IMG/VR virus record: IMGVR_UViG_3300034111_000056
Span: 1 to 24,798 of that record
Source of the DNA: a virus
DNA: 24,798 nucleotides
Strand: one strand, 5' to 3'
The translations under genes and the position numbers were made by a program. Shown in pieces: positions 35-14,507 of the stretch (position 1 is its first letter; each line of letters begins with the position of its first letter). The notes under the pieces were generated by a model that ran no database searches, was not told where the DNA came from, and saw only the letters and a program-made list of their open reading frames with translations.

Positions 35-1741
35 TTAAGCCTTAACCTTCTTTTGGATCTTTACGACCAAAGCGGTTAGTGCTGTGATTTGCTTCTTAAG
101 TGAAGCAATTAGTGCAGATACATCTGCAGACAACTTAGCAACTGCATCAACTGCAGCCTGTGCCTGTACTGTAGCAGCATCTGCAGCCTTTGAAGCAGCA
201 ATCGCTGCATCTGTAGCAGCCTGGGCTGCCTTTGCTGCCTCTTCAGAAGCCTTTGTAGCAGCCTTTGTTGCTGCGTTAGAAACTTCTGCTGATGCTGTTA
301 CTACAACCTGTCCAGCAAGTGGAAGTGAAGTTCCACCTGTTGCTGAGATCTTAACAACGTTTTCAGCCAAAGGCATAAATACCTTGTATGACTTAGCAGT
401 TGCTGTATCTGTTGTAACTGATGTTGCAGTTAGTACATCAGATGATGATCCAAATGCATAGTTAGGAACAATTCCACCTGTAGCAAATAGGTTAGCGTGT
501 GTCTTTCCAGATACTGGAAGACCTGCTGCATCAAGAACCTGAACTGTGATAGTTGCTGCTTCTCCTGGAAGATAAACTTCCTTATCAAATGACAACTTAA
601 CAGTTGCTGCAGTTCCCTCTACACGAGTAGAAACTGGAGCAGATGATACTGTACCTGACTTAACAGTTACAGCGACTCCGCCTGTCTTGACTCCTGTAAG
701 AGTAAACACTGCTTCACCATTTACGATTGTTGCTGCAGTTCCTGAATCGGATACCACTGAAACATCGCTTGAGAAAGCATTGAGTGTTCCTGCTCCAACT
801 GTTACTCCAGCAGCATCATATGCCACTGCCTTAATTGTTGAAGCATTTGATCCTGTTGCAATAACAGGCTTGACTACTGTTGCTACGATAGATGCAATAT
901 CTCCGTAGAATGTTACCTTCTCAGTTGCAAGAACTGCACCTGTAAGGGTTGTAAGAGTAATTGTTGATACTCCTGCTGTACCGTCAGCAAATACACCAAT
1001 GTAATTTCCTGTTGGAATAACTACTGAGCGACCAAGAGCAGTCATAGTTGTAGCATTTGTGCCATAACCAATCATACCTGTTCCTGAAACTGTTGCAAGA
1101 ATTGACTCAGTTGCTGCTCCGCCTGCTGCATTCTTAGGTGTAACAACGATTACCGCTGCTGCATCTGCTGAAGTAGCCTTTGGTGCATAAACTGTGGCAT
1201 CTGCTGTTGCAGTTGTTACTTCGCCAGAGTTAAGAATTGATGTTGTTGTTGCTGCAGAAGGTGTAACATCTGCTGCTTTAACTGTTACTGTCCACGCAAC
1301 TGATGGACCTGTTGCTGGACGAGTTGTAAGAATACGTGCTTCGTATGTACCCGCAACTGTTGGTGCTACCAATGAAACTGTAAACTTTGCAGTTACATAT
1401 CCTGGTGTTCCAACTGTTGAGTTAACATCTGCTGAAAGGCTTCCTGCTGCAATTGTAACTACAGAGGTTGTTGTTTCAAGCAATGAGAGTGTTGCACTCT
1501 TTGATGAGCCTGATGGCTGTGCAAAAATAGCAGATAGCACCGTTGCTGTGTCTGCTGCTGTTTCTGAAATAAATGACAATGTTACTACTGCTGTAGCAGT
1601 CTCACCTGCAGTGATTGTATCTGTAGCAGAGTCAATCGTTAGTGCTGGTGCAATTACAGCAGCACTTGTCGGAAGTGCTGACATAACGCCAAAGGACATT
1701 GCTGCAGCGAGTCCTAGGGCAATTTTCTTAAATGAATTCAT
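35..1741 (-). CDS. secreted, Ig-like and coiled-coil host-type surface protein
   Basis: This 568-aa protein begins with a clear Sec signal peptide: Lys-Lys n-region, hydrophobic residues 8-23, and probable signal peptidase I cleavage after Thr-Ser-Ala (25-27) or one residue later. The mature part is Ala/Thr/Val/Ser-rich and mostly beta. It has repeated Ig-like or Big_1/invasin-like stretches, for example around residues 290-370 and 385-480. From about 486 to the end it becomes an Ala-rich coiled coil with a basic tail, IQKKVKA. There is no LPXTG motif or C-terminal membrane anchor. ATG is preceded by AAGGAG at good spacing. It is the gene after terL. The architecture resembles cell-surface proteins of small freshwater Actinobacteria rather than known phage structural families (my recognition, not a search). 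It could coat the host, block superinfection, or be assembled on virions; the role is unknown. Confidence 0.85.
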   Translation of the reverse strand: MNSFKKIALGLAAAMSFGVMSALPTSAAVIAPALTIDSATDTITAGETATAVVTLSFISETAADTATVLSAIFAQPSGSSKSATLSLLETTTSVVTIAAGSLSADVNSTVGTPGYVTAKFTVSLVAPTVAGTYEARILTTRPATGPSVAWTVTVKAADVTPSAATTTSILNSGEVTTATADATVYAPKATSADAAAVIVVTPKNAAGGAATESILATVSGTGMIGYGTNATTMTALGRSVVIPTGNYIGVFADGTAGVSTITLTTLTGAVLATEKVTFYGDIASIVATVVKPVIATGSNASTIKAVAYDAAGVTVGAGTLNAFSSDVSVVSDSGTAATIVNGEAVFTLTGVKTGGVAVTVKSGTVSSAPVSTRVEGTAATVKLSFDKEVYLPGEAATITVQVLDAAGLPVSGKTHANLFATGGIVPNYAFGSSSDVLTATSVTTDTATAKSYKVFMPLAENVVKISATGGTSLPLAGQVVVTASAEVSNAATKAATKASEEAAKAAQAATDAAIAASKAADAATVQAQAAVDAVAKLSADVSALIASLKKQITALTALVVKIQKKVKA

Positions 1742-1784: not shown

Positions 1785-3572
1785 CTATATTAGATTGAAT
1801 TTGTCTAAGAAATCACGAACATCGTCCGTCATTTGCTTAGGTTCTAATTCTACCATAGATCTACGTTTCTCTGCAAGTTGAGCAGAAGACGAAGACCAAG
1901 TGTGTACTTCAATGACTGTATTAGTAGTCTTTGGGGTATGGGATATAGCCCCAAATACTGAGCCAGCCAAAGCATCTGCTAAGTCTTTAGATTTCTTTCT
2001 AGGGTGATCTACACGATTACCTTTCATAATCTTCAACTCAGACATTTCTTCTAGCAAGATTGGAATCATAGGAATTGCTACACGCTCTTCATAAATCATC
2101 ATTGCTAAATCTTCATAGTGTTTTTTTGCAACAGAAACAGTTTCAGTTCTAATTCCCACTGCCTGTAGTTCATTCTGAATATCAAATGACTGCCAACGGT
2201 CAAAGGAAACCATTCCAATGTTAAAGCCTTCTCTGCGAAGATTAATAATCCAATTCTTTACATCAGATAGGTTAACTGGGCCTTCTGCCCTTGGTTCCCA
2301 CCAAGCAACAGCATCTACTACTACCATTGGAGCCACTTGTTCATAGTCTTTAATAACCTGAATGTTTACCCACTTGTCTACGTGAGAAATTGCTACTGCA
2401 CACTTATCATGCTTTTGTGCAAGGTCGGCGTGAATATAGTAAACCTTGTCTGGGTCTGGCTTAAAGGCCTCATCAAACCTTCTAAACTGATCTAATGGAT
2501 TACGAAGTGTCATAACCTTTTCTAGTTTGGTTCTGTCTTTAAAGAAAGCATCAGAAGCATAGGTGGGCATACATGCAAAACGCATCATGGCATCTGCAAG
2601 GTCTGTGTAAAATGCAATCTTAAAGTCATCAATTTGGCGGGTAGGATTTACTTCCCAGGTTGGTCGTTTAAATGCCAACACTCTTGGAATTTTATAAGAA
2701 AGTATTGTGTCTTCATCCCAAGAAATTTCAAACCTATTTCCTGGATCCTCATGTGGCAAATCTGGATTCATAATAAAGGTGTGCTTACGCTCTACAGTTT
2801 CTTTTTCAGCAATTACTGATTCATATTTTTGTGAAATAAAGTCACCCTGATAACGGGGGAATGAAAGCAAAACAACCTTGCCAAGATCAGGAAAACGAGA
2901 ATCTACAGTACCACGAAATGCTTTATAGATATTTTCAGCAGTCTTTCCCTGTTCATTACCTGTTCCAACCTCTGATGCAAAACCAGAAATCTCATCAAGT
3001 ACTGCCATGAAAAGGTTCAAACCCTCGTGAGATTCACGTTCAGAGTGACCAGAGTAAACAGTTACAGACTTATCAAAATCAATTGAGTCTGCCTTTGCAT
3101 TATACTTTCCAGCAAACCAAGGGGATCTTTCAATCTTTGATTTAAAACCTTTAAAGAAAACATTTTTTGCCTGTTGTGCGTTAATAGCAACGTTAATAAT
3201 ATCAATAGCATCACCTGCAGGCTTACCATAATAAACAGCAGGGTCTTTAAGACACAGTAGTTTATACACTGTATATGCACAGGCTACAGTTGATACGAAG
3301 TCTTTTCCAGATCCCTTGCCAAGTTGGAGAATAATCTCATTCTTTGTATATTTATCAAAGTATTTTGCTCCCTCAACGGAACCATAAAGTTCTTCAAGAT
3401 CTTCTTTGCGGTAGATTTGACTCATAGCCTCTACGATCTGATACTGAATATCAGATAGTTGTGGCTGCCCAAGATAGTCTGGAGACTCAACAAAAGTTTT
3501 TGCGTCTACAGGTTTTTCAATAAAATGGTTTTCTTTTAGTACTTCAAGAAACTCATTGAACATCGTGGACAA
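1785..3572 (-). CDS. terL: terminase large subunit (packaging ATPase and nuclease)
   Basis: The protein is the motor that cuts concatemeric DNA and pumps it into proheads. N-terminal ATPase: Walker A LGKGSGKD at residues 84-91 (numbered from the TTG start), with Asp where Ser/Thr is usual, and Walker B FMAVLDE with D193 and E194. The C-terminal RNase H-like nuclease shows candidate acidic residues D383 (IHADLAQ), D458 (SFDRW) and D530/D533 (KDLADA). The length of 595 aa is normal for the family. Start is uncertain: TTG at 3572 has a GGGAG about 14 nt upstream, while ATG at 3563 gives 592 aa without a clear RBS. Both overlap terS, so translation is probably coupled. The terS-terL pair sits between the recombination block and the secreted-protein gene. 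Confidence 0.93.
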   Translation of the reverse strand: MSTMFNEFLEVLKENHFIEKPVDAKTFVESPDYLGQPQLSDIQYQIVEAMSQIYRKEDLEELYGSVEGAKYFDKYTKNEIILQLGKGSGKDFVSTVACAYTVYKLLCLKDPAVYYGKPAGDAIDIINVAINAQQAKNVFFKGFKSKIERSPWFAGKYNAKADSIDFDKSVTVYSGHSERESHEGLNLFMAVLDEISGFASEVGTGNEQGKTAENIYKAFRGTVDSRFPDLGKVVLLSFPRYQGDFISQKYESVIAEKETVERKHTFIMNPDLPHEDPGNRFEISWDEDTILSYKIPRVLAFKRPTWEVNPTRQIDDFKIAFYTDLADAMMRFACMPTYASDAFFKDRTKLEKVMTLRNPLDQFRRFDEAFKPDPDKVYYIHADLAQKHDKCAVAISHVDKWVNIQVIKDYEQVAPMVVVDAVAWWEPRAEGPVNLSDVKNWIINLRREGFNIGMVSFDRWQSFDIQNELQAVGIRTETVSVAKKHYEDLAMMIYEERVAIPMIPILLEEMSELKIMKGNRVDHPRKKSKDLADALAGSVFGAISHTPKTTNTVIEVHTWSSSSAQLAEKRRSMVELEPKQMTDDVRDFLDKFNLI

Positions 3573-4089
3573 CTGTAATCACTTCTCCCTCTTTTGCAAT
3601 AGAGGATAGTCTTTGCATAATGGTGTCACGAACTTCTGGATACTCTGAAGCAACATCTCTAAGAATTCCAACAAGAACTTCTTGACGACGCTCAACTTCG
3701 ACCATCTCTTCAGCAAGTTCTTTATTTTCAAGAAGTCCAGCCTTCTGGAGCATATCAATACGCTTTGACTCAATGTCCATAACTAGTTTAATAGCAGCAG
3801 TCTTTGCACTAAGATTATTAGTCATAGATGCCTCATCAATAACTTCGTAAGATTTTCCAATTAGTCTTGCATAGTGTGCATCCATTGCAGCCAACGCTTC
3901 TTTAGCACGAGCACGAATAGCATCATTAGCAGATGCCATAACTTTCCACTCATTGATTAAAGAAACAACACGAGTTCGTGGAATGTCTAATTCTTTTGAA
4001 ATAACAGTGGGGTCGTTGCCTTTTAGGTATTCACTAACAACAACATTTACTTGATCAAGATGTTTAATCAAATCATCTTCAGTTGACAT
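3553..4089 (-). CDS. terS: terminase small subunit
   Basis: This 178-aa, largely helical protein directly precedes and overlaps the large terminase gene, the standard position for the DNA-recognition subunit. Residues about 18-50 form a helix-turn-helix-like segment (ISKELDIPRTRVVSLINEW). It is followed by long amphipathic helices typical of the oligomerisation region of terminase small subunits, and a C-terminal tail that may contact TerL. ATG is preceded by AGAGGG. The start overlaps the end of the DUF3310 gene by 11 nt. The family is assigned from position, size and HTH character; sequence alone is less diagnostic than for TerL. Confidence 0.8.
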   Translation of the reverse strand: MSTEDDLIKHLDQVNVVVSEYLKGNDPTVISKELDIPRTRVVSLINEWKVMASANDAIRARAKEALAAMDAHYARLIGKSYEVIDEASMTNNLSAKTAAIKLVMDIESKRIDMLQKAGLLENKELAEEMVEVERRQEVLVGILRDVASEYPEVRDTIMQRLSSIAKEGEVITVVHDVQ

Positions 4090-4321
4090 ATTTACCCTCT
4101 AATCTATTAATTTCATCTTTGATATAGAAGATTGCTTTCTCTAAATCTTGAATAGTCTTTGACTCATCTTTAAGCCCTGCTCTCCAAAGATATTTAAAGG
4201 CATTGCCTATATTAAAGTTACGATGACGAGTAATCTGAATACACTCAACTCCAGATGGGTCTGTTGTATAGTGTTCTGGATGGTTGACTTGATCAACAGT
4301 TATGTTTAGGTTTTCACTCAT
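4079..4321 (-). CDS. DUF3310 family protein
   Basis: This 80-aa protein carries the hallmark of the DUF3310 family, common in phages. It has an N-terminal VNHPEHYT motif, then GVECIQI, and a C-terminal helical part with FKYLWRAGLKDES followed by DLEKAIFYI. Members are sometimes described as nucleotide-kinase related, but the role is not firmly established and I assign none. The ATG at 4321 is chosen because GAGGAAG lies 8 nt upstream. Its first bases overlap the stop of the small membrane-protein gene (ATGAGTGA). A longer in-frame ATG at 4351 exists but has no comparable RBS. The gene sits immediately upstream of terS. Confidence 0.82.
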   Translation of the reverse strand: MSENLNITVDQVNHPEHYTTDPSGVECIQITRHRNFNIGNAFKYLWRAGLKDESKTIQDLEKAIFYIKDEINRLEGKYVN

Positions 4322-4448
4322 ACGATTCTTCCTCATCGTCTTCCCAGTCAAACGCTTCTGGCATACCCTTAAGGGTTGTCAGGACATAAGTTATTCCTAC
4401 TGCTCCAGCAATACCCAAACCAATAATAACTTTTTGTACTTTATTCAT
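4314..4448 (-). CDS. small single-pass membrane protein
   Basis: This is a 44-aa protein with a short basic N-terminus (MNKVQK), one hydrophobic segment at about residues 8-25 (IIGLGIAGAVGITYVL), and a strongly acidic C-terminus (DWEDDEEESYE). By the positive-inside rule the N-terminus would be cytoplasmic and the acidic tail outside. ATG overlaps the stop of the preceding HTH gene as ATGA, and AAGGA lies about 10 nt upstream. A longer reading from an upstream start at 4514 is less likely because it would overlap the HTH gene. A holin-like, superinfection-exclusion or membrane-tethering role is conceivable. The position beside packaging rather than lysis genes gives no proof. Confidence 0.6.
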   Translation of the reverse strand: MNKVQKVIIGLGIAGAVGITYVLTTLKGMPEAFDWEDDEEESYE

Positions 4449-4600: not shown

Positions 4601-4615
4601 GATGTTATTTGTCAA
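4587..4615 (-). promoter_or_regulatory. candidate promoter before the terminase block
   Basis: On the minus strand a perfect -35 TTGACA (4615-4610) is separated by 17 bp from TAAACT (4592-4587), which matches TATAAT at four of six positions including T1, A2 and T6. Transcription would start near 4580, inside the small HTH gene. It would therefore serve the membrane protein, DUF3310 and terminase genes rather than the HTH protein itself. The same TTGACA and TAAACT pairing recurs before the SSB gene. This is sequence evidence only. Confidence 0.4.
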
Positions 4616-5201
4616 CCCCTATAGCCTTTGTCCAATTGTTTATTGCCCAATGCCCAATGCCACAAGCATCTGCTACATCATTATCGTCAATTGTTTTATC
4701 ATAGGTAGTATTAATAAACTTAATAGTTCTTTCTTTACGAAGCATTCTTTCATAGGACTTATACCAAGACTCTGACTTCCCTGGATTTTGTGAACGAATA
4801 AATAGTTGCTCATCTTTAGAGATCTTCTTGTTATTAATATAGTTTTGCCATGTAATCGGAGATACCTTGCCAAAGGTTCTGATCCCACTAATTGCAGCGG
4901 AACCTAGAAGTGCTCCCTGAACTAAAGCAAGATCAGCAGCAGTCTTTGGGCTATTCATAAATACAGTATGCTCAATAACAATAGCATCAACATTGATATA
5001 TTTTTCAAAGTAGAGTCGTGTCTTTGCAGCAGCGTCTCCAACTTTATCATATATATCTTTTCCTTCAAAATAAATCTTGCCACACTCTTTTAAGAATCCA
5101 GCATGGAAAGTGGCATAGGCAAGACTATTTGTGCTAGCATCTATTGCACAAATTTTTTCTGGTTGGGTTTCTAGACCCCATTTATTCTTGCTCATACTCA
5201 A
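4605..5201 (-). CDS. RuvC-like Holliday junction resolvase
   Basis: This protein of about 198 aa has an RNase H-like/RuvC fold. The first strand is ICAIDAST with D21, then AIVIEH with E77, and a C-terminal acidic pair in IDDNDVADA (D175, D178), matching the D-E-D-D metal site of RuvC nucleases. The segment from TVFMN to about residue 105 resembles the RuvC region around the second acidic residue. It should cut four-way and branched junctions before packaging, in keeping with its place between the recombination and terminase genes. The TTG at 5201 has AAAGG 5 nt upstream. The in-frame ATG at 5195 (196 aa) is an alternative. It overlaps the upstream zinc-protein gene. Confidence 0.8.
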   Translation of the reverse strand: MSMSKNKWGLETQPEKICAIDASTNSLAYATFHAGFLKECGKIYFEGKDIYDKVGDAAAKTRLYFEKYINVDAIVIEHTVFMNSPKTAADLALVQGALLGSAAISGIRTFGKVSPITWQNYINNKKISKDEQLFIRSQNPGKSESWYKSYERMLRKERTIKFINTTYDKTIDDNDVADACGIGHWAINNWTKAIGVDK

Positions 5202-5472
5202 TAAAACCTTTCAACTCTTTAATCATTTTATTAACTTCTTTTTCACTTATATTACAATTTGAACAAAATCCAGAATCATTATATATAGAAAGCATAACTC
5301 CACATCCACCAAGACACTTTCTATCTTTTCCTATTCTTTTTTGTCTACGTGTAACTTGATATCTTTCAGCAATTTTTTCTCTAGTAGCCTCATCTCTACA
5401 AGTATTGCTGCAGTATATCTGATAACTTACTTTAGGATTAAAGTATGTATCACATTTGTTACAAAGTTTCAA
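5182..5472 (-). CDS. small protein with two zinc-binding motifs
   Basis: This 96-aa protein has two cysteine clusters. The first is Cys4-like (CNKC near the N-terminus, then CSNTC), and the second spans CLGGC and CSNC around residues 53-74. A basic, Arg/Lys-rich linker lies between them, so nucleic-acid binding is likely. No catalytic motif is seen. The start is TTG at 5472, supported by GGAGAAG just upstream. It overlaps the end of the Cas4-like nuclease gene and the start of the RuvC-like gene. It resembles the small zinc-finger proteins phages carry beside recombination nucleases, such as HNH-adjacent or transcription-related proteins, but I cannot name a family. Confidence 0.7.
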   Translation of the reverse strand: MKLCNKCDTYFNPKVSYQIYCSNTCRDEATREKIAERYQVTRRQKRIGKDRKCLGGCGVMLSIYNDSGFCSNCNISEKEVNKMIKELKGFIEYEQE

Positions 5473-6274
5473 CTAACTTCTCCATTGATTTAATCTTAAC
5501 TACTCCTTCTCCTGCATCTAAACAAGCCTTTTGGATAGGGCATGTCTTACAGATTTTAGAATTAGATCGGTAGTTTTTAGTAGGAAGAGTTCTATCTTCC
5601 CAAGCCTTACGAACCTCACGCATCCATTGAAATGCGTTATCAATCCATTCACGATAATTATCATCTACCTCTACTGGCAGTACAAGAAGTTCGTGGTTGT
5701 TCTTGTTTTCATAAATAAGAACACCTTTCTTCTTGCCAAGAATCTTCATGTAGATAAGCAACTGAATCAAGTGACCAGTCTTTGGCTTCATTGAATTTTT
5801 ACGATACTCAAAACCTTCATTGAGCATAGTCTTAATTTCTCCAACAATTTCTTCGCCTTCCCAGTCAAGCATCACGTCACCATATCCAAAGATAGGTGGA
5901 TCATCATGGCGAATCTTAAACTCAGTTGTCTCCTCATTATTATCATCACGATAAATCTTAACAATGCCAGCATTCATCATAGCGTTCTGGATTCTTGCAT
6001 GAGATAACGTTCCAGCAGTCATGTTTGCTGCGCCATAAGCATCTGCATTATCTTCAAACATTTGACCATCAAATGCTAAGTACCAATATCTTGGACACTC
6101 TCCATGTGAGTATGCAATTGTAGATGGGGCAAAAGTTTTCTTTTGTGTTTGCTTTGGGCCACGATTAATAATGTAACCGTGCTTAATTTTTTCAATTAAA
6201 GCGTCACTATCAAGAACATTATTTTTCTTTATAGCAGGCTTAAGCATCACCGAGTGTAGTAAATTCTTAGTCAT
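5459..6274 (-). CDS. Cas4/RecB-like PD-(D/E)XK nuclease with Fe-S cysteines
   Basis: This is a 271-aa exonuclease-type protein. Numbered from ATG 6274, it shows APSTIAYSHGECPR with C60, a His in AGTLSH (H92), GYGDVMLD (D133), EIVGEIKT (E146, K148) and a QxxxY motif at Q171. These are the ordered motifs of the RecB/Cas4 branch of PD-(D/E)XK nucleases. Three C-terminal cysteines in CKTCPIQKAC (C242, C245, C251) together with C60 match the 4Fe-4S cluster of Cas4 and AddB. It probably resects DNA ends for RecA-dependent recombination. There is no CRISPR array or other cas gene here. An ATG at 6280 is also in frame, but the AAAGG touches it; spacing favours 6274. Confidence 0.82.
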   Translation of the reverse strand: MTKNLLHSVMLKPAIKKNNVLDSDALIEKIKHGYIINRGPKQTQKKTFAPSTIAYSHGECPRYWYLAFDGQMFEDNADAYGAANMTAGTLSHARIQNAMMNAGIVKIYRDDNNEETTEFKIRHDDPPIFGYGDVMLDWEGEEIVGEIKTMLNEGFEYRKNSMKPKTGHLIQLLIYMKILGKKKGVLIYENKNNHELLVLPVEVDDNYREWIDNAFQWMREVRKAWEDRTLPTKNYRSNSKICKTCPIQKACLDAGEGVVKIKSMEKLVETL

Positions 6275-6280
6275 ATTCAT

Positions 6281-6618: not shown

Positions 6619-6903
6619 TTACTCTCCTTCTATTAACTGTTCTAACATGTCTAATTCAATTATAGCAAGTCTAACCTTCTGGGTACCCTCGCCCAGTACG
6701 ATGATGAGGGCAGGATCCATACTCTTCTTAAGAGCATCTGTTACAGCCTTAGCCCAAACATCTTGGTTAAGAGTAAAAGACTTTGAACATTCTTTAAAGT
6801 CAACTACAAAGTTATGCCAAGAGGCATCACCTTTTGTATTATTTCTGCCAGAGTTCTTGTGCTGCTTTGCACCTATTCTTTTGGACTCAGAGCGCTCACT
6901 CAT
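6619..6903 (-). CDS. mini PD-(D/E)XK, Hjc/resolvase-like nuclease candidate
   Basis: This 94-aa protein reads like a minimal archaeal-Hjc/phage resolvase. Features in order: an early Glu in ESKR (residue 6), a Gly/Asn/Ser-rich SGRNNTKGD with D26, then VVDFKE giving D35-x-K37, followed by SFTL and a Trp-containing helix at about 50, and PALIIVLGEG near 64-72. The D...DxK order with a following SF motif is what PD-(D/E)XK junction resolvases show. Normal family members are about 100-140 aa, so this is compact. ATG overlaps the stop of the preceding zinc-protein gene. The RBS is weak. The RecA neighbourhood supports a DNA-junction role; the call is by motif only. Confidence 0.5.
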   Translation of the reverse strand: MSERSESKRIGAKQHKNSGRNNTKGDASWHNFVVDFKECSKSFTLNQDVWAKAVTDALKKSMDPALIIVLGEGTQKVRLAIIELDMLEQLIEGE

Positions 6904-7081
6904 TTATAAAGTCTGCCTTTTTCTTTTTTTCTGGTTTTAGATTTACCTTAGACACATGCTTCTTTGTACACATCCATGTAGCATCTCCTGAGTCAATCCA
7001 AAGTCTCAAAGAAGTAACTTCTTCATGACATTTTTTGCAAGGAAACTTACCTTCAAATACTTTAAAGTCTTTATCAGCCAT
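6896..7081 (-). CDS. small CCCH-type zinc-binding protein
   Basis: The protein has 61 aa with FPCKKCHEE (CxxC, residues 15-18) and MCTKKH (C38 to H42), giving a likely Cys3His zinc site. A lysine-rich tail from residue 50 to 57 (PEKKKK) suggests nucleic-acid contact. It lies between recA and the mini nuclease gene and overlaps both (start inside the last codons of recA, stop beyond the next ATG), so it is translationally coupled to them. Function is unknown; an accessory or anti-host DNA-binding role is possible. Confidence 0.65.
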   Translation of the reverse strand: MADKDFKVFEGKFPCKKCHEEVTSLRLWIDSGDATWMCTKKHVSKVNLKPEKKKKADFINE

Positions 7082-8090
7082 TTGAAAGTTTCTTCTTTAA
7101 AGACTCTTGCAAATCAATATCTTCTTTTACACGGTTAATGAAGCCATCTCTACCCTGAACCTTTGTTCCGTCATCAAGTTGATACCATGCACCAGTTCTA
7201 TTAACAAGTCCTGCTGCTTCTGCGGTATCTACAAGATCTCCAATAGAGTCAATGCCGATTTCGTCTCCTCTAAAATAAAAGTCATACTCGCCTGACTGAA
7301 AACCTGGAGAAGTTTTAGAGAACTGCAGTTCCCAACGAATCTTTCTTCCAATTTTTTCTTCAATCAACTTATCGCCAATCTTAATCTTGCCTTTGATGGC
7401 TTGATTATCCGACTCTGATGAGAACAGTTTAATAACTGTTGACGAATAAAATTTTGTAGCCTGCCCACCTGTTGGTTGCTGGCTTGTATACATTGCGTTA
7501 ATGTTGTTTCTTGACTGAGAAATAAGAACAAATAGAGTAGGATTAACTTTATTGTTAGCATAGTTAATCATCTTCCAGGCATTTGAGAAGTCACGAGACT
7601 CCGCACCAATCTGCTTAGTATTTTCTAGTTGTTTAAGTTCATCTGAATCTTTTTCAAAGTAAATTGCTGGAAGCAATGATGTAATTGAGTCAACGACAAC
7701 AATATCTACACCAGCATTAATAAGGTTTGTTCCTACATCAACCATTTCATTAATTGTGCGAGCCTGTGAATAAATCAACTTAGATGAGTCAACACCTAAA
7801 CGCTCTGCCCACTTTGGATCGTAAGACATTTCTGCATCAATCCATGCACAAACCTTGCCTTCTTTCTGTGCTAGGCCTATCATCTGAAGGCATAGAGAGG
7901 ACTTTGCAGAGGACTTTGAACCCCAAATGAGTACTTGTCTGCCATAAGGTAATCCTCCTGCTAAGGCACGGTTTAAACCAAAACTAGGTGTGGCTGCATA
8001 CTCTGTTGGAGGAACTGAATCTCCAGTCATAATAGTCTTACGCAACTTAGGGTTAAGTTGTGCTAGTACTTCTTCCATTGTTACTGACAT
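7074..8090 (-). CDS. recA: RecA-type recombinase
   Basis: This 338-aa strand-exchange ATPase has Walker A GSKSSAKSS at residues 57-65, in which the usual Gly before Lys is Ala62. The catalytic Glu is E87 in IDAEMSYD, and Walker B is VVVDS ending at D134-S135. The L2 DNA-binding loop follows ISQSRNNINAMY and leads to TGGQATKFY, closely like bacterial RecA. The C-terminal GIDSIGDLVDTAEAAGL and GAWYQ segments match the RecA C-terminal domain. Length is about that of cellular RecA (about 350). ATG overlaps the mazG-like stop as TAATG. It should pair the ends resected by the Cas4-like nuclease and make the junctions that the resolvases cut. The LexA-cleavage role of cellular RecA need not be kept. 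Confidence 0.93.
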   Translation of the reverse strand: MSVTMEEVLAQLNPKLRKTIMTGDSVPPTEYAATPSFGLNRALAGGLPYGRQVLIWGSKSSAKSSLCLQMIGLAQKEGKVCAWIDAEMSYDPKWAERLGVDSSKLIYSQARTINEMVDVGTNLINAGVDIVVVDSITSLLPAIYFEKDSDELKQLENTKQIGAESRDFSNAWKMINYANNKVNPTLFVLISQSRNNINAMYTSQQPTGGQATKFYSSTVIKLFSSESDNQAIKGKIKIGDKLIEEKIGRKIRWELQFSKTSPGFQSGEYDFYFRGDEIGIDSIGDLVDTAEAAGLVNRTGAWYQLDDGTKVQGRDGFINRVKEDIDLQESLKKKLSNG

Positions 8091-8422
8091 TAAAATCGTA
8101 CCCCGTGTTTTTCTGGTCTAGTTTTATTAAAGTCGACCTTTTCTTTGAGTGCTTGATCAAGTGATAATCTAGTATAGCCTGCTTCAACCATTCCTGCATA
8201 TAGATCAAGTGTCCTAATAATAATATCTGCAAACTCTTTAGTGATCTCTTCTTCGCCTTTATCTTTACGTACTGCTTCCATTACCTCAGTAACTTCTGAC
8301 ACAATCATCATACATTGTTTAGCAATAAATATATCATTTATAGCGTCGTGATCTTCTGGGCTTCCCCAAAAACCTTTTTCAACTGCATTCTTGTGTAGTT
8401 CTATTGCCATATCGTCAAGCAT
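8090..8422 (-). CDS. mazG: MazG-type nucleotide pyrophosphohydrolase
   Basis: This 110-aa protein has the all-alpha NTP pyrophosphohydrolase signature. EVTEVMEAVRK contains EXXE (E43, E46), and KEFADIIIRTLD contains EXXD (E63, D66), which together bind Mg2+. It is a single-domain phage MazG, about half the size of E. coli MazG. Such enzymes hydrolyse (d)NTPs to monophosphates. In phages they are thought to clean or rebalance the nucleotide pool, or to affect ppGpp. The start ATG has an excellent GGAGG 7 nt upstream that lies within the end of dnaE, and its reading frame overlaps dnaE by 8 nt, coupling it to the polymerase. Confidence 0.85.
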   Translation of the reverse strand: MLDDMAIELHKNAVEKGFWGSPEDHDAINDIFIAKQCMMIVSEVTEVMEAVRKDKGEEEITKEFADIIIRTLDLYAGMVEAGYTRLSLDQALKEKVDFNKTRPEKHGVRF

Positions 8423-11400
8423 TTATATCCTCCAGTGTTATTGTTCCATCTTTTGTTTTACCAAAACTAAATTTATATGATTTGCCTTCTTCAATATGCA
8501 TATATGCTTTTGAGAATGCTGTAGGAAATACAGTGATAGGGTGCAAGTCTCTGCTTGTGTCTGCAAGTGTAAGGGTTGCCATCTTCTTACCCGCTTTAGT
8601 AACTCTAGGCTTAAAAGATACTACATACATTTCTTCATCCTTGTATGGCAACTGCTTATAACTTAAAAATTTGACAAGGGCATCTGAAGATGTTCTTATT
8701 TCATCTGCTGGGATTGCAGAAACAATTCTGTTGTCTGTTGCCAAAAGCAAGTATGTCTTTCCAGTTTCAATTGTTGTCTGCTCTTCATCAAAGATTCCAA
8801 TTGATCCAGTTTTATCTAAGACTTCAACTCTTGACCAGCCAGTGCCACGCTTTATTGCCTTGACCATTCCCAAAAGAATATAAGATCCCTTTTCTTCAAA
8901 CTGCTCTACATCACTAATAAAAGCATAATAGTGAGATGGAATAGTAATATTAAACTCTGGTAGATTTAGATACTCATAAAGGTTCTCTTTAATCTCATCA
9001 TCATTTCTAGGGTTATCATTAAATGTTGCAGCACCAATTACTCTTAGTGCCTGCAGTGCACGGGAGTTTACTCCGTTTCCTTTTGTAAAGGTAAATTCCT
9101 CAAGTTCTTTGTATGAATTAAATGGTCGTGCTGATATGTATCTTTCAGCAATCGTGTCAGATATGAACTTGATAGCACTGAGTCCAAACCGAATGCCTTT
9201 ACCCTCAATTTTAAAATCTTTATCCGAATCGTTAATGTGAGGTAACTTAATACTAATGCCCATTCTTTTTGCTTCAATAAGATACTCAGTTCTGCCATCT
9301 TTGTCCTTTTCATTTTTTAATAGTGCAAACATAAACTCTAGCGGATAGTGGTATTTGAGCCACGCTGTCCAATACGAGAGAGTACTGTAAGCAACGGCAT
9401 GTGATTTGTTGAACGAATACCCAGCATGCGCTTCAAAATCATGCCAAAGATCCAAAGCATCATTAGGGGAGATATACTTACTAGCACCACTAACGAAACG
9501 ATCTTGGAACTCATTAAACTCTTTAGCATCTTTTTTCTTTCCAATGATTTTTCTAACTTTATCTGCTTCCGACATGGACATACCGCCAAGTTGTACGCAT
9601 GCTTGCATAACTTGTTCTTGGTAAAGAATGCAGCCATAGGTATCCTCCGTAAATGGTTTTAGAATTTGGTGAAGATAATTAATATTTTGACGACCGTGCT
9701 TGCGGTCAATATAATCTTTACCGATTGTGTTAGCAGCACCTGGGCGAACCAAAGCATTTGATGCTGCAAGTTCGTTTAGGTTCTTTACACCCATCTTAAT
9801 AAGAAGGTTTGTATATGGCGTTGCTTCACACTGAAACACTCCCTTGGTAAAACCACTAGAGAGCATCTCGTAAACATCTTTATCTTTCATGTCAATTGAC
9901 AATAAGTCAATGTCAACATAATGGTTTTCTTTAACCATATCAATAGTATCTTTAAGTACACTAAGAGTCTTAAGCCCTAGAGCATCAATCTTAATTAGCC
10001 CAATGCGTTCTGCTTCTTCCATGTCTACACCAACAACAGGAATACGCTCATCACTACCAGTAGAAGATCTTGTCTCCATTGGAGCGTGTCTAAAGATTGG
10101 TTCTTTTGAAGTAACAACACCAGCAGCATGAATACCAGTACCACGAATTCTTCCACGCAGTTGCTCTCCATAAACTTCTACCTCTGGATATTTTTCACGG
10201 AACTCTCTTGTTGACTTAGAGTTACAGAAATCATCCCAAGTATCTACAGTCTTTAGTACTTTGTTTACATCTGACAAAGGAATATTTAGAACTCGTGCAA
10301 TATCACGAACAATTCCTTTTCCAGTAAATTCTAAAAAGGTTGCAATAGATGCAACGTGGCGATATTGACGAACTAGATAGTCTTTTACTTCTTCACGACG
10401 AGTATCTTGAATATCTGTATCAATATCTGGAAAGTCATTACGCTCTGGATTAATAAAGCGGAAGAACAACAAGCCGTGTTCAATTGGATCAATATCAGTA
10501 ATACCAAGTGAATAGCACAACAATGAGCCAGCAGAAGATCCACGTCCAGGACCTACCAAGATGCCTTCCTTCTTTGCCCAACTAATCATATTCTGAACAA
10601 CAAGAAAGTATGGGCCAAAGTTCTTGTTCTTAATAATCTCTAACTCTTCATCAAGGCGGTCAAGGTATTCTTGATTAGTATCCAAACCACGAACCTTCAA
10701 GCCTTCCATAGCAAGGGTTCTAAGTTCTTTGTCAGGGTTTTTATACTGTACTGGTAGAAGGTTTAATCCATCTTTAATATCATAGTCTTCTACCTTGTCA
10801 GATATCACTATGGTATTTGTGTACATATCTTCTCTTACAATACCCTGGGATTCCATGGCAAACTTCATTTCGTCATACGAAAGCAGGTGTATATCAAACT
10901 TATTAAATGACATTTGTCTATCTTCACCGTACAAATAGTCAAGACGCTTCATCATTCCATCTTGCTTTTTTGATTTGTCATAGGTGGTATCTTTTTGTAC
11001 CTTGGCGTGAGAGTTCATAAGTAACTTAAACTCTTGAATTTCTTTTTGTGATTCGTCAACATGGTGACAATCTGGAGTAACAACAGTCTGAATTTTAAAT
11101 TCATCTGCAAGATCAGATAACTGCTTATTAACTTCTGCCCCGTTATGTGGCATAAGTTCCATATAGAAATCATCTTGAAACACACGCTTAAACCACTCAA
11201 TATGTTTCTTTGCTTGTGCATACTCTCCAAACTCAAGAGCCTTTGCAATAATACCACTAAGACAGCCAGAGAGTACGATAATACCTTCGCTATACTTTTC
11301 TAATACTTCAAAGTCAAAGCGTGGTTTATTAAAGTACCCCTCTGTCCATGCAATTTCATTAATTTTATTAAGATTTTCAAGACCTACTTGATTCTTAGCG

Positions 11401-11687
11401 AGAAGGATAATGTGATTATAAACTAGATCAGTTGGCTCTGTGCGTTCTGCCTTCGGCCTCTTGTCAAATCTATCAACACAAAAATATCCTTCTACGCCAA
11501 GAATAGGCTTTACACCTTTTGCTTTTGCAATTCGGTACAGTTCCCGATGCCCAGATAAGGTTCCGTGATCTGTGATAGCCAATGCTGGCATACCAAGTTC
11601 AACTGCTCGGTCTACATATTCTTCTGGAGTAGCAACACCATCAAATAATGAATAGTGTGTGTGTACGTGTAAGCCTGCGTAGTTCAT
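8415..11687 (-). CDS. dnaE: DNA polymerase III alpha subunit (DnaE-type replicase)
   Basis: This is a 1090-aa family C polymerase, near the usual 1100-1180. The PHP domain (about 1-275) keeps all nine metal ligands of proofreading DnaE1: H7, H9, D16, H41, E66, H92, C142, D206 and H208. The palm has GPGRGSSAGS (379-388) and catalytic aspartates D423 and D425 in PDIDTD, with the third, D568, in IKIDALGL. A helix-hairpin-helix region and two OB-like segments (about 965-1000 and 1025-1085) follow. I do not see a clear QxxLF-type clamp-binding motif before the first OB segment. There is no DnaQ-like exonuclease gene in the window, so proofreading may be done by the PHP domain. ATG follows the ssb stop by three bases; the RBS is weak. 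Confidence 0.95.
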   Translation of the reverse strand: MNYAGLHVHTHYSLFDGVATPEEYVDRAVELGMPALAITDHGTLSGHRELYRIAKAKGVKPILGVEGYFCVDRFDKRPKAERTEPTDLVYNHIILLAKNQVGLENLNKINEIAWTEGYFNKPRFDFEVLEKYSEGIIVLSGCLSGIIAKALEFGEYAQAKKHIEWFKRVFQDDFYMELMPHNGAEVNKQLSDLADEFKIQTVVTPDCHHVDESQKEIQEFKLLMNSHAKVQKDTTYDKSKKQDGMMKRLDYLYGEDRQMSFNKFDIHLLSYDEMKFAMESQGIVREDMYTNTIVISDKVEDYDIKDGLNLLPVQYKNPDKELRTLAMEGLKVRGLDTNQEYLDRLDEELEIIKNKNFGPYFLVVQNMISWAKKEGILVGPGRGSSAGSLLCYSLGITDIDPIEHGLLFFRFINPERNDFPDIDTDIQDTRREEVKDYLVRQYRHVASIATFLEFTGKGIVRDIARVLNIPLSDVNKVLKTVDTWDDFCNSKSTREFREKYPEVEVYGEQLRGRIRGTGIHAAGVVTSKEPIFRHAPMETRSSTGSDERIPVVGVDMEEAERIGLIKIDALGLKTLSVLKDTIDMVKENHYVDIDLLSIDMKDKDVYEMLSSGFTKGVFQCEATPYTNLLIKMGVKNLNELAASNALVRPGAANTIGKDYIDRKHGRQNINYLHQILKPFTEDTYGCILYQEQVMQACVQLGGMSMSEADKVRKIIGKKKDAKEFNEFQDRFVSGASKYISPNDALDLWHDFEAHAGYSFNKSHAVAYSTLSYWTAWLKYHYPLEFMFALLKNEKDKDGRTEYLIEAKRMGISIKLPHINDSDKDFKIEGKGIRFGLSAIKFISDTIAERYISARPFNSYKELEEFTFTKGNGVNSRALQALRVIGAATFNDNPRNDDEIKENLYEYLNLPEFNITIPSHYYAFISDVEQFEEKGSYILLGMVKAIKRGTGWSRVEVLDKTGSIGIFDEEQTTIETGKTYLLLATDNRIVSAIPADEIRTSSDALVKFLSYKQLPYKDEEMYVVSFKPRVTKAGKKMATLTLADTSRDLHPITVFPTAFSKAYMHIEEGKSYKFSFGKTKDGTITLEDINA

Positions 11688-11690
11688 CTA

Positions 11691-12347
11691 TTACCAGTCT
11701 GTGTTTGTTGCAGACGTGGTTGTTGGACCATCAAAGCCCAAATAGAATGCTTCTTGTTCCGCATAAGGAATCTTCTTAAGTGCTGATTCCAATGGGAATG
11801 GTTCAATCTCTGCCCAGTCAAAAGGTTCCTTGTCTGGTGCAGATGGAATAAGTGTGTAAGATGTTTCAGTTCCCTGACCATTGCGCTTTACTTTCCAAAC
11901 CAAGTTTGAGATGCTTCCTGTTTCAAGAGCATACTCACGAATGGTATTGAAAGCAGATTGCTTGCTTACACCCATTGACCAAATAGCAACATATGGCTTT
12001 TCAATTCCATCGTCTACTAGGACGTTGCAGTAGAAACGAAGACGACCACGCCATCCAGCCTTTGGATCCTTGCGGTGCATCTCTTCTGCCCAGTCACGGC
12101 CTTCTGATTCCATTGTGTCTACAGCCTTACGCTTATAGTCCTTTGGATTTGTGTGTTCTTTTACAACTAGCGCAAGACCACGACCTTCATTATAATTTGC
12201 TGAGTCTTCATCTAGTTCTTCAATAAAGCGAATCTTTACTGATTGACCATCGGCAAGTTTTAGCCACTTTACCTTTGGTGAGTTTTCGTCATACTTTGGC
12301 TTGTCAAGCAGGGCATTGATATTCTTGAGTCCCTTTACTACGCTCAT
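11691..12347 (-). CDS. likely single-stranded DNA-binding protein (gp32-like)
   Basis: The predicted product is 218 aa. The pattern WLKLADGQSVKIRFIEEL at residues 28-45, WRGRLRFYCNVLVD at about 99-112, and a polar tail rich in Thr/Ser/Asn ending in TDW is the layout of phage ssDNA-binding proteins related to T4 gp32 and to small OB-fold SSBs. The central region has the aromatic and basic residues expected of such a fold, but no zinc cysteines like those in gp32. It lies between primase and polymerase, the place for an SSB at the fork. It has its own promoter candidate and a strong AAGGAG, consistent with a need for many copies. The family is inferred from layout rather than a diagnostic signature. 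Confidence 0.6.
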   Translation of the reverse strand: MSVVKGLKNINALLDKPKYDENSPKVKWLKLADGQSVKIRFIEELDEDSANYNEGRGLALVVKEHTNPKDYKRKAVDTMESEGRDWAEEMHRKDPKAGWRGRLRFYCNVLVDDGIEKPYVAIWSMGVSKQSAFNTIREYALETGSISNLVWKVKRNGQGTETSYTLIPSAPDKEPFDWAEIEPFPLESALKKIPYAEQEAFYLGFDGPTTTSATNTDW

Positions 12348-12370: not shown

Positions 12371-13294
12371 TTAGTTTAGCATAGACGAGATAGATTTGTC
12401 AAACTGGAACTCAAGTTCCTTAATTGCTTCATCATCCATATCGCCAATGTCTTTGTATTTTTTATCTATGTTGACTACGCTGACTAGAGATCCAAGTTTT
12501 TCAATTAACTTGTCTTTCATAATTGCGCCAGCCTCATCATTGTCTGCAACAAGTACAACGTTGTTGAAGTACTTTTCTAACAGTTTAATCTGCGATGCAG
12601 ATACGTTAGCACCCAGTGTTGCAACTGCTGGGAAACCTACTTGGTCTAAGCGGATTGCATCAAAGGATGACTCCACTACATATATAATACTAGAAGTCTT
12701 AACTCTGTGCAAGTTAAACAAGACCTTACTCTTTGGAAGGCCAGGAGTATTCTTAAACTCTTTACCTTCAACAGAACGACCAACAAAACCAATTGTTAAT
12801 CCATCTGGAGAGTGTACAGGAATGGTAACCATATCCTGTTTTTCTGAATAACCTAACCAAAACTTTTTAACAGAATCTTCTGTAATTGATCTTCCAGAGT
12901 AATATCTCATTGCTCTTGGAGACTCAAGTGCTTGATTATTTAAACGCTTAATTAAAACTTCATCATACTGAACAAAATCTGGTGGTGCATACATAGCCTT
13001 ATTAACTATGTTCTCAATGTTTGTTTCTGTTTCTTTGCTTTTTATGTAGCGGACAGTTTCAAAATATGATCGGCCAGTTGTGAACATAATAAACTCTTCA
13101 AGGTTTTTAGTTGTCTGGCATCCAAAGCAAAAGAACAAACCGCTATCCTTCGCTACTTCTCCTGCTGGAGTTCTGCTGTTATTATGATATGGACAGTACA
13201 CAATGAAGTCATTACCAAACTCTGCTTCAATCTCAACTCCAGATCCATTAAGGACTCTGCGAACCTGTTCTTCACTATAGATATTACTTGCCAT
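12371..13294 (-). CDS. dnaG: DNA primase, CHC2 zinc and TOPRIM type
   Basis: This 307-aa protein makes RNA primers. It has a zinc-binding motif C34-P-Y-H37 with C56-F-G-C59 (CHC2 type), and a TOPRIM domain with E208 in VVESSFD and the DxD pair D251/D253 in VADNDEAG. Cellular DnaG is about 600 aa; this phage form stops after TOPRIM and lacks the C-terminal helicase-binding domain, so it may meet the helicase differently. ATG at 13294 overlaps the end of the helicase gene by 11 nt, and GGAT lies just upstream. Starts further upstream, up to 13330, would only add residues inside the helicase gene. Confidence 0.9.
   Translation of the reverse strand: MASNIYSEEQVRRVLNGSGVEIEAEFGNDFIVYCPYHNNSRTPAGEVAKDSGLFFCFGCQTTKNLEEFIMFTTGRSYFETVRYIKSKETETNIENIVNKAMYAPPDFVQYDEVLIKRLNNQALESPRAMRYYSGRSITEDSVKKFWLGYSEKQDMVTIPVHSPDGLTIGFVGRSVEGKEFKNTPGLPKSKVLFNLHRVKTSSIIYVVESSFDAIRLDQVGFPAVATLGANVSASQIKLLEKYFNNVVLVADNDEAGAIMKDKLIEKLGSLVSVVNIDKKYKDIGDMDDEAIKELEFQFDKSISSMLN
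12373..12402 (-). promoter_or_regulatory. candidate promoter of the SSB gene
   Basis: On the minus strand TTGACA (12402-12397), an 18-bp spacer and TAAACT (12378-12373) end just at the stop of the primase gene. Transcription from about position 12366 would give a leader of roughly 19 nt that holds AAGGAG before the ATG at 12347. The position at one of the few real gene gaps, before an abundant protein, makes it the best-placed of the three promoter candidates. Confidence 0.5.
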
Positions 13295-14507
13295 CTTCAA
13301 AATCCTTATATCTGTAGTAGCCCTTGTCAAAGTCTACCTGTACTAAGAAGTCACCCATAAAACCATTACGGTTCTTTCTAAATACACACTCAATAATATC
13401 ACTATTAACTCCACGACCCAATGCAAGAAGCCAGTCAGCATCATAAGAAATCTGTCTTGACCACGCCGTTTGTCCAAGTGTTGGAGGAGTGCTAAGATCC
13501 TTTACATCGTCAGGGGTAGCAGATGAGATAGCAATAATAGGCACTTCTTCACTAATAGACATTAGTTTAAGTTCTCGTGAAAGGTTCTTCATCTTTACCG
13601 TTTCATTATCAGCCTTTTGGTTTGGACTCATAAGTTGTAGATAATCTACTACAACAAAGTCAGGCTTATACTGATCAATCTTTCCACGGATTACTGAAGG
13701 AGTAACCTCTCCACCAGAATCATTTGAGATGATGTGAAACTCTGGGCGACCCTCTACCTTATTCGCATGCCATTTACGAAGCATATCAATTTCAACTTCA
13801 CCGTTAGAAAGTTTACGGTGTGACCAAAGACCTTCACCCATAATTGCAAATACACGGTTACGAACTTCTGTCTCAGACATTTCAAGCGAGATAATCATTG
13901 GTGACTTACCCTGTTTCCACGCCTGCACTGCAAAGTATAGTGCCATCCATGACTTACCAATACCTGGATAGGCTAAGAATACTCCAAGTTGCCCTGGCAT
14001 AATTCCAGCAGGAAGATAGTTATCAAAACCTGGAAGGCCAGTCTTAATTCCTACAGCACCTAATTCATTTTGCTTTTGCACTCTTTCGTAATATGCTACA
14101 GCATCTTCAAGATCTGTTGCATCAATGTCACGGATAGCAGCAGTGTTCTTTTTTAGTTCTGAGGTTTTAGTTATAAGGTGCTCAAGTGCTTCTGTCCCGT
14201 TACCAGTCTGAACCTCACCTGCTGCATTGCGAAGAAGATCTTTTAGACTATCATTTAGATATTCTGTTTGAAGTTCTGCAAGGTGGTGCTTTGTAGACCC
14301 AACACCAGACACTGGTTCAAAGTCTCTAAATTTTTCTCTTACTAGATCTGTTGGTGGCAGTGCCTGATTGTTTTCAGAATACAAGCGAATAAAGTTCCAA
14401 ATATCATTGTGAGTTCGTAGCATTGTCTCAACATTGCCCTGAAGCAGTACGTGAATTTGTTTATCTTGTAAGACTGCAGTAATAACCTTTGCCTCTGTGT
14501 TATTCAC
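13284..14507 (-). CDS. dnaB: replicative DNA helicase, DnaB-like
   Basis: This 407-aa hexameric-helicase-type ATPase has Walker A PGIGKS (K185, S186), a catalytic Glu in SLEMSE (E209), and Walker B DFVVVDYLQL with D288. The ISSATPDD to DADWLLALGR region matches DnaB motifs H3-H4, including an Arg finger region near the end. The N-terminal 150 residues are helical and smaller than those of E. coli DnaB, as in many phage DnaB proteins. The start is GTG at 14507 with AAGGAG 8 nt upstream, overlapping the stop of the previous small gene. It unwinds the fork and should act with the primase encoded next. Confidence 0.92.
   Translation of the reverse strand: MNNTEAKVITAVLQDKQIHVLLQGNVETMLRTHNDIWNFIRLYSENNQALPPTDLVREKFRDFEPVSGVGSTKHHLAELQTEYLNDSLKDLLRNAAGEVQTGNGTEALEHLITKTSELKKNTAAIRDIDATDLEDAVAYYERVQKQNELGAVGIKTGLPGFDNYLPAGIMPGQLGVFLAYPGIGKSWMALYFAVQAWKQGKSPMIISLEMSETEVRNRVFAIMGEGLWSHRKLSNGEVEIDMLRKWHANKVEGRPEFHIISNDSGGEVTPSVIRGKIDQYKPDFVVVDYLQLMSPNQKADNETVKMKNLSRELKLMSISEEVPIIAISSATPDDVKDLSTPPTLGQTAWSRQISYDADWLLALGRGVNSDIIECVFRKNRNGFMGDFLVQVDFDKGYYRYKDFEDGK

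Follow-up and report, generated by a model that had tools for sequence, protein, structure and literature searches.

How does a phage that carries its own replicative DNA polymerase remove mismatched primer ends, and how does it keep that enzyme on the DNA? The question is raised by the DnaE gene of IMG/VR record IMGVR_UViG_3300034111_000056, a 24,798-base virus fragment with terminase and tail genes, all of which was analysed here and is referred to as the window. A preliminary description had noted an intact proofreading site in the PHP domain, no DnaQ-like gene and no clamp-binding motif, and had suggested a self-proofreading polymerase that needs little or no sliding clamp. We consider it reasonably likely that the product is a phage-encoded DNA polymerase III alpha subunit (Pol III alpha) that proofreads with its own PHP domain and whose processivity module has been remodelled. 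The elements that bear on identity and proofreading are the following.

8415..11687, minus strand: DnaE (Pol III alpha) gene, 1090 amino acids, ATG start; TIGR00594 1.9e-234, phrog_405
11013..11681, minus strand: PHP domain, residues 3-225; Pfam PF02811 over residues 6-181, model aligns with 5lew
11640..11669, minus strand: PHP ligands H7, H9 and D16, by alignment
11565..11567, minus strand: PHP ligand H41, by alignment
11490..11492, minus strand: PHP ligand E66, by alignment
11412..11414, minus strand: PHP ligand H92, by alignment
11262..11264, minus strand: PHP ligand C142, by alignment
11064..11072, minus strand: PHP ligands D206 and H208, by alignment
10419..10427, minus strand: polymerase catalytic residues D421 and D423, aligned to Escherichia coli DnaE
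9984-9986, minus strand: third catalytic aspartate, D568, aligned to E. coli DnaE
9024..9260, minus strand: (HhH)2 segment, residues 810-888; Pfam HHH_6

The plus strand across 8415-11687 is riddled with stops, and the coding strand is the minus strand. Pfam matches (PHP 4e-46, DNA_pol3_alpha 5e-72, fingers 7e-46 and HHH_6 4e-13) and the order PHP, NTPase/palm, fingers and HhH, together with the three catalytic aspartates, place the protein in the C family (Pol III alpha). Its closest annotated relatives are DnaE proteins of the Stanwilliamsviridae, and all 1366 matching phage records are below 60% identity to it. Across the enlarged family set, in which 233 loci give 201 distinct proteins, D421 is kept in 200/201 rows and D423 and D568 in 201/201. 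The AlphaFold2 (AF2) model (predicted local distance difference test (pLDDT) 90.1, predicted template modelling score 0.79) aligns over the whole protein with Mycobacterium tuberculosis (Mtb) DnaE1 5lew (Z 42.4, root-mean-square deviation (rmsd) 2.9, 863 residues aligned), with a Z of 41.6 for 7pu7; the PHP fold is predicted too. Mtb DnaE1 and the phage protein have PHP ligands and overall fold in common; in the phage protein the PHP loop is shorter, QxxLF is lacking, an additional OB fold is present and no tail extends beyond the OB region. The best sequence matches in the Protein Data Bank are Thermus aquaticus (Taq) DnaE structures (2hpi, 3e0d and 4iqj); the Taq enzyme has 1220 residues against 1090, and one of its structures (4iqj) contains tau, whereas the phage chain stops after a second OB fold. 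E. coli DnaE shares the polymerase core and catalytic aspartate triad but differs in its degraded PHP site, separate DnaQ and QADMF clamp motif.

Each of the nine residues that the preliminary description had named as ligands (H7, H9, D16, H41, E66, H92, C142, D206 and H208) lies where it had been placed and aligns with the metal ligands of Mtb DnaE1 (5lew/7pu7) and Taq DnaE. The resulting motif, HHDHEHCDH, is kept in 181/181 distinct family sequences covering all nine ligand columns, the other 20 being truncated contigs that miss some of them. This motif fits the pattern HHDHEH[C/H]DH, which a 2026 survey of bacterial polymerases scores as an active PHP (PMC12926913). In Mtb DnaE1, nine such residues, also conserved in Taq DnaE, hold three zinc ions; D23N and D226N abolish exonuclease activity, and mutating K136 or Y105 reduces it (PMC5636811). 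The window equivalents of D23 and D226 are D16 and D206. K121, corresponding to K136, a lysine on the DNA path, is invariant (191/191 family rows), and Y90, corresponding to Y105, is Y in 171 and F in 18 of 189 rows. Within a set made up of the window, first-round relatives and eight Stanwilliamsviridae, 55/223 PHP columns do not vary, and these include every one of the nine ligand columns (hypergeometric 2e-6, for columns that are not truly independent). We reject a chance origin of the site, since nine ligands distributed across 200 residues show no variation in 181 sequences. Residue 40 directly precedes ligand H41 (window 11565-11570); of 185 family rows, 152 have D there and 33 have N. 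The window reads TDHG where the Stanwilliamsviridae read TNHG, with N in 8/8 annotated Streptomyces phages.

A complete PHP site is ordinary, being present in 80/81 aligned bacterial DnaEs in a sample drawn by similarity, which biases the fraction upwards; the sole exception is E. coli (RHDFDHGDR). PHP proofreading in DnaE is itself already known (PMC5636811, PMC4731781 and PMC12926913). By analogy with those enzymes, self-proofreading by the window PHP is well supported by a complete and invariant motif, a predicted fold and a conserved DNA-path lysine, and we regard metal-dependent excision by this domain as quite probable.

A further question is whether another proofreader accompanies the polymerase. 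As the preliminary description had it, no DnaQ-like gene is visible in the window: PF00929 gives no match there even at E<=10, phmmer with a phrog_403 exonuclease query gives none, and the list of open reading frames shows none. A hidden DnaQ was rejected on these grounds, and the Cas4 and RuvC genes were rejected as proofreaders by their family assignment. Absence from 24.8 kb says little by itself, the window being a genome fragment. Carried beyond the window into relatives, the claim holds in every search of the nearest long ones and fails for the family as a whole. PF00929 matches were found in 1/45, in 5/17 and in 10/50 family records at E<=0.1 (8 of those 10 over the cut-off), almost all of Loccivirinae type. 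The Boydwoodruffvirinae carry a PF16473 exonuclease instead of DnaQ, and two Loccivirinae have both; neither the DnaQ gene of the Loccivirinae nor the PF16473 exonuclease was found in the window. The PF16473 (Rv2179c-like) DEDD exonucleases of Boydwoodruffvirinae and some Loccivirinae (L116-L121) lie distant from the polymerase gene and in Mildred21 are annotated as RNase H or exonuclease.

The window belongs to a freshwater group of relatives, and the family tree groups it with V_L038 (contig G016); the tree (FastTree) has long branches and is used for grouping alone, and it omits six named rows with a DnaE identical to that of another locus (L241, L258, L281, L300, L303 and L321). Fourteen long records were searched locally at --max with DnaQ, PF16473, phrog_403, E. 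coli DnaQ and G061 queries, and the positive controls (Circinus, L065 and G061) gave matches. No credible DEDD exonuclease match appeared in 13 long freshwater records (82-115 kb), G016 included. Regular-expression matches to the DEDD motif in five long relatives were discarded, since their sequences read like Cas4, a dioxygenase-like protein and a tail-type protein. Within the branch that includes the window, no proofreader other than PHP was found, in genomes likely a little short of complete.

Comparison among phages shows that an intact PHP and a DnaQ coexist in the family: Loccivirinae with DnaQ retain all nine PHP ligands (4/4 annotated phages), with no exception in the 181 rows. Outside the family, PHP is intact in 12/12 sampled phages without a PF00929 match, and Glittering has both an intact PHP and DnaQ. 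The ligands are destroyed in two sampled phages, E217 (L393; RRADEKEYD) and ECML-117 (L101; RRENEKGYH), in which DnaQ is encoded immediately or almost immediately upstream of the polymerase, the reverse of the window arrangement. The sample of outside lineages is small and in part non-independent, and searching with PF00929 falls short of full sensitivity.

The second part of the question, how the enzyme stays on the DNA, concerns the C-terminal part of the protein, where three elements follow the HhH segment.

8952..8978, minus strand: conserved peptide YEYLNLPEF, residues 904-912, in the place of bacterial QxxLF by alignment
8700..8921, minus strand: extra OB fold (OB1), residues about 923-996, RPA-like, from AF2 strands
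8418..8636, minus strand: canonical DnaE OB fold (OB2), residues about 1018-1090; PF01336 and structural match

In bacterial DnaEs, Q..[LMI]F follows HhH in 65/80. The window DnaE has no QxxLF-type clamp-binding motif after HhH, and the absence of such a sequence before the OB region, reported in the preliminary description, extends to the motif site across the family. QxxLF occurs in the C-terminal tail of 0/77 first-round relatives and 0/8 Stanwilliamsviridae; in the enlarged set, the string occurs in 2/196 tails (QMYLF in both), where it is part of an OB strand and lies away from the motif site. What occupies that site is a different peptide, with residues 906-912 reading [YFV]Lx[LIV]PxF in 196/196 covered rows (L907, P910 and F912 invariant) and a conservation of 0.82 against 0.63 for the otherwise variable linker; in the Stanwilliamsviridae and the window it takes the common form YLx[LI]PxF. 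The spacing of its hydrophobic residues resembles that of clamp peptides, and the pattern is similar to the hexapeptide QLxLPL. In the PCNA peptide of Pol iota, a tyrosine stands in for the glutamine (PMC3716654). From its sequence, the peptide is a plausible non-consensus clamp binder; its pLDDT of about 51-61 in a model of the C-terminus by itself indicates poor order, which would weakly fit a docking peptide.

No phage clamp was found in relatives, where DnaN was absent from 42 of 42 records and PF02767 from 50 of 50, with bacterial controls giving matches in both searches; the T4-type clamp PF02916 was likewise found in 0/50, but the controls were silent as well, so this search is evidence neither way. 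The host clamp is available to the phage DnaE in any case, and the invariant peptide could bind it. The suggestion of little or no need for a sliding clamp is therefore unsupported as it was put.

OB1 occupies the place of the post-clamp segment of bacterial DnaE and has no Pfam name. Among the matches listed, in lists that are not exhaustive, it resembles RPA OB domains (3e0e, Z 9.8, rmsd 2.0, 74 aligned; 2k5v, Z 9.5, rmsd 2.7, 77 aligned; Z 9.9 to 2k5v in the fragment model) and also OB domains of aminoacyl-tRNA synthetases (Z 9-10 over 73-77 residues, RPA matches included). OB2 matches Mtb DnaE1 988-1099 (Z 8.3, rmsd 2.3, 81 aligned); PF01336 is sub-threshold in the window (1e-4) and present at E<=0.1 in 74/101 members. 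The chain ends in OB2, and neither alignment nor model contains a C-terminal tau-binding domain. Polymerases of phages TunaTartare (Streptomyces; one of the Stanwilliamsviridae) and Weasels2 (Rhodococcus) have the same C-terminus. We do not claim a match of the tandem arrangement to HIN, Teb1 or POT1, since Foldseek with the C-terminal fragment gives rmsd >15 and single folds alone match.

The genes around DnaE, all on the minus strand, give the setting in which the polymerase would act.

13284..14507, minus strand: DnaB-like helicase, family match
12371..13330, minus strand: DNA primase, family match
11691..12347, minus strand: single-stranded-DNA-binding protein (SSB), phrog_9721 7e-43
8090..8422, minus strand: MazG-like pyrophosphohydrolase, family match; overlaps the DnaE stop
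7074..8090, minus strand: RecA-like recombinase, Pfam
6619..6903, minus strand: Holliday-junction resolvase family phrog_2002, PHROG match
5459..6280, minus strand: Cas4-type exonuclease (recombination, not proofreading), family match
4605..5201, minus strand: RuvC-like resolvase, PHROG match
1785..3572, minus strand: large terminase, phrog_2 1.5e-15

The large terminase gene marks the DNA as phage, and the window is probably a 24.8-kb piece of a larger genome of about 115-135 kb. It carries the Stanwilliamsviridae-type module of helicase, primase, SSB, DnaE, dUTPase or MazG, RecA, resolvase, Cas4, RuvC and terminase, in the order found in the complete Streptomyces phages Circinus, Wakanda, Blueeyedbeauty, Jay2Jay and StarPlatinum (Stanwilliamsviridae). 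DnaE proteins of these phages and of BillNye are 47-56% identical to that of the window over their full length, with the nine ligands identical. Judged by DnaE likeness and gene order, the relatives of the window phage are Stanwilliamsviridae-like actinophages. Directly after the terminase gene, 35-1741 (minus strand) encodes a 567-residue protein with a signal-peptide-like start and an Ala/Thr/Val-rich, adhesin-like sequence, for which Pfam and PHROG searches gave no match; a short DUF3310 protein (PF11753) is encoded at 4079-4351 (minus strand), between the RuvC-like and terminase genes.

Several observations weigh against a self-proofreading enzyme with a clamp-docking peptide. The Mtb loop residue W137 has no window counterpart in the alignment. 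Mtb DnaE1 is destabilized by mutation of its metal ligands (PMC5636811), and by analogy the role of a complete PHP site can be purely structural. Relatives with a DnaQ have an equally intact PHP, so its invariance is no proof of sole proofreading. Two freshwater contigs, L065 and L067, encode a phrog_403 ‘DNA polymerase exonuclease subunit’ (5e-69; PF13482) at L065:15000-15656 and L067:15000-15656, both plus strand, two genes downstream of RecA and adjoining a Holliday-junction resolvase gene. It surfaced through a phrog_192 search (G035 and L067 are one relative), and with it the statement that freshwater relatives are without any DnaQ was rejected; the tree labels (34/34 freshwater rows DnaQ-negative) are wrong for V_L065 and, outside the clade, for E_L251 and E_L252. 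This protein had escaped the PF00929 genome search although it scores 9.7e-7, so that ‘absent’ is a statement of lower sensitivity. G061 has a diverged DnaQ (phrog_192 search); in G060, which falls outside the freshwater clade, the local search found two exonuclease genes, one of PF16473 type and one of diverged DnaQ type. The replacement peptide is without the glutamine of the clamp motif, and in the full model its pLDDT is in the 70s-80s; it might just be buried within the folded polymerase.

Proofreading in trans could come from the host DnaQ or from a phage exonuclease that escaped detection, with PHP kept for structural or metal-binding stability, and the DEDD exonucleases that part of the family combines with an intact PHP fit this, as does a window of only 24.8 kb. 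Against it stand the exact identity of the ligands in all 181 complete rows, the loss of PHP in E217 and ECML-117, where DnaQ lies close upstream of the polymerase gene, and the lack of an exonuclease in the 13 long relatives; we regard proofreading in trans as rather unlikely. The enzyme might otherwise serve repair or recombination and not replication, given the nearby RecA, Cas4 and RuvC genes, but helicase, primase and SSB are equally near, in a syntenic module common to complete Streptomyces phages, and no other polymerase was noticed among the annotated genes of complete Circinus, which makes a repair polymerase highly improbable.

On the processivity side, tandem OB folds, helped by the phage SSB and helicase, could make the replicase self-sufficient and clamp-free while PHP proofreads. 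The clamp searches in 42 (DnaN) and 50 (PF02767) records, the lack of QxxLF at its site, the missing tau-binding tail and the extra RPA-like OB fold all favour this, and tandem-OB DNA binders (Teb1 and HIN domains) are among the fold matches, with poor overall superposition. Yet a clamp is always present in the host, the exact position of the clamp motif is taken by an invariant hydrophobic peptide, OB folds are common and the tandem arrangement is unmatched at Foldseek rmsd >15, and we consider a clamp-free enzyme, the chief alternative to docking on the host clamp, unlikely, if a little less so than proofreading in trans. The boldest version, in which a single polypeptide replaces alpha, epsilon, clamp and tau and genomes >100 kb are copied with neither clamp nor separate proofreader, is more doubtful still; there PHP would replace epsilon, the inserted OB fold and new peptide would replace clamp and tau attachment, and the lineage would be widespread. 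The extra OB fold would make a clamp-light replicase possible.

We therefore return to a self-proofreading Pol III alpha with a remodelled processivity module, the reading set out at the start. The phage’s own replicative C-family polymerase would work with the neighbouring helicase, primase and SSB, and mismatched primer ends would be excised by the polymerase itself in a metal-loaded PHP site, metal binding and exonuclease activity both being predicted. Remodelling of the processivity module, as seen in alignment and model, consists of the replacement of QxxLF by [YFV]Lx[LIV]PxF, the insertion of an OB fold before the normal one and the loss of the tau-binding tail. Tentatively, and with somewhat less than even confidence, we suggest that the polymerase attaches to the host clamp through the new peptide, and that the tandem OB folds at the same time hold the DNA and assist in delivering the primer end to PHP.

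In the literature searched, which left most subscription papers out of reach, no paper was found on PHP proofreading or clamp motifs of phage DnaE, nor on a phage family that combines an invariant PHP, a replaced clamp motif and tandem OB folds. Kazlauskas and Venclovas reportedly treated viral replicases in 2011. For bacteria, the questions of mutual exclusion between PHP and DnaQ and of how Pol III alpha without a clamp motif is retained on DNA have been raised (PMC3919608). The family described here is a natural experiment on both, in which all the related polymerases have an intact PHP and a replaced clamp motif but only some of the phages carry a DnaQ-type gene; its single-chain enzymes lend themselves to direct measurement of clamp dependence and of proofreading by PHP. 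Should the new peptide prove to bind clamps, the known motif would be widened; if it does not, the family would provide a clamp-independent C-family replicase.

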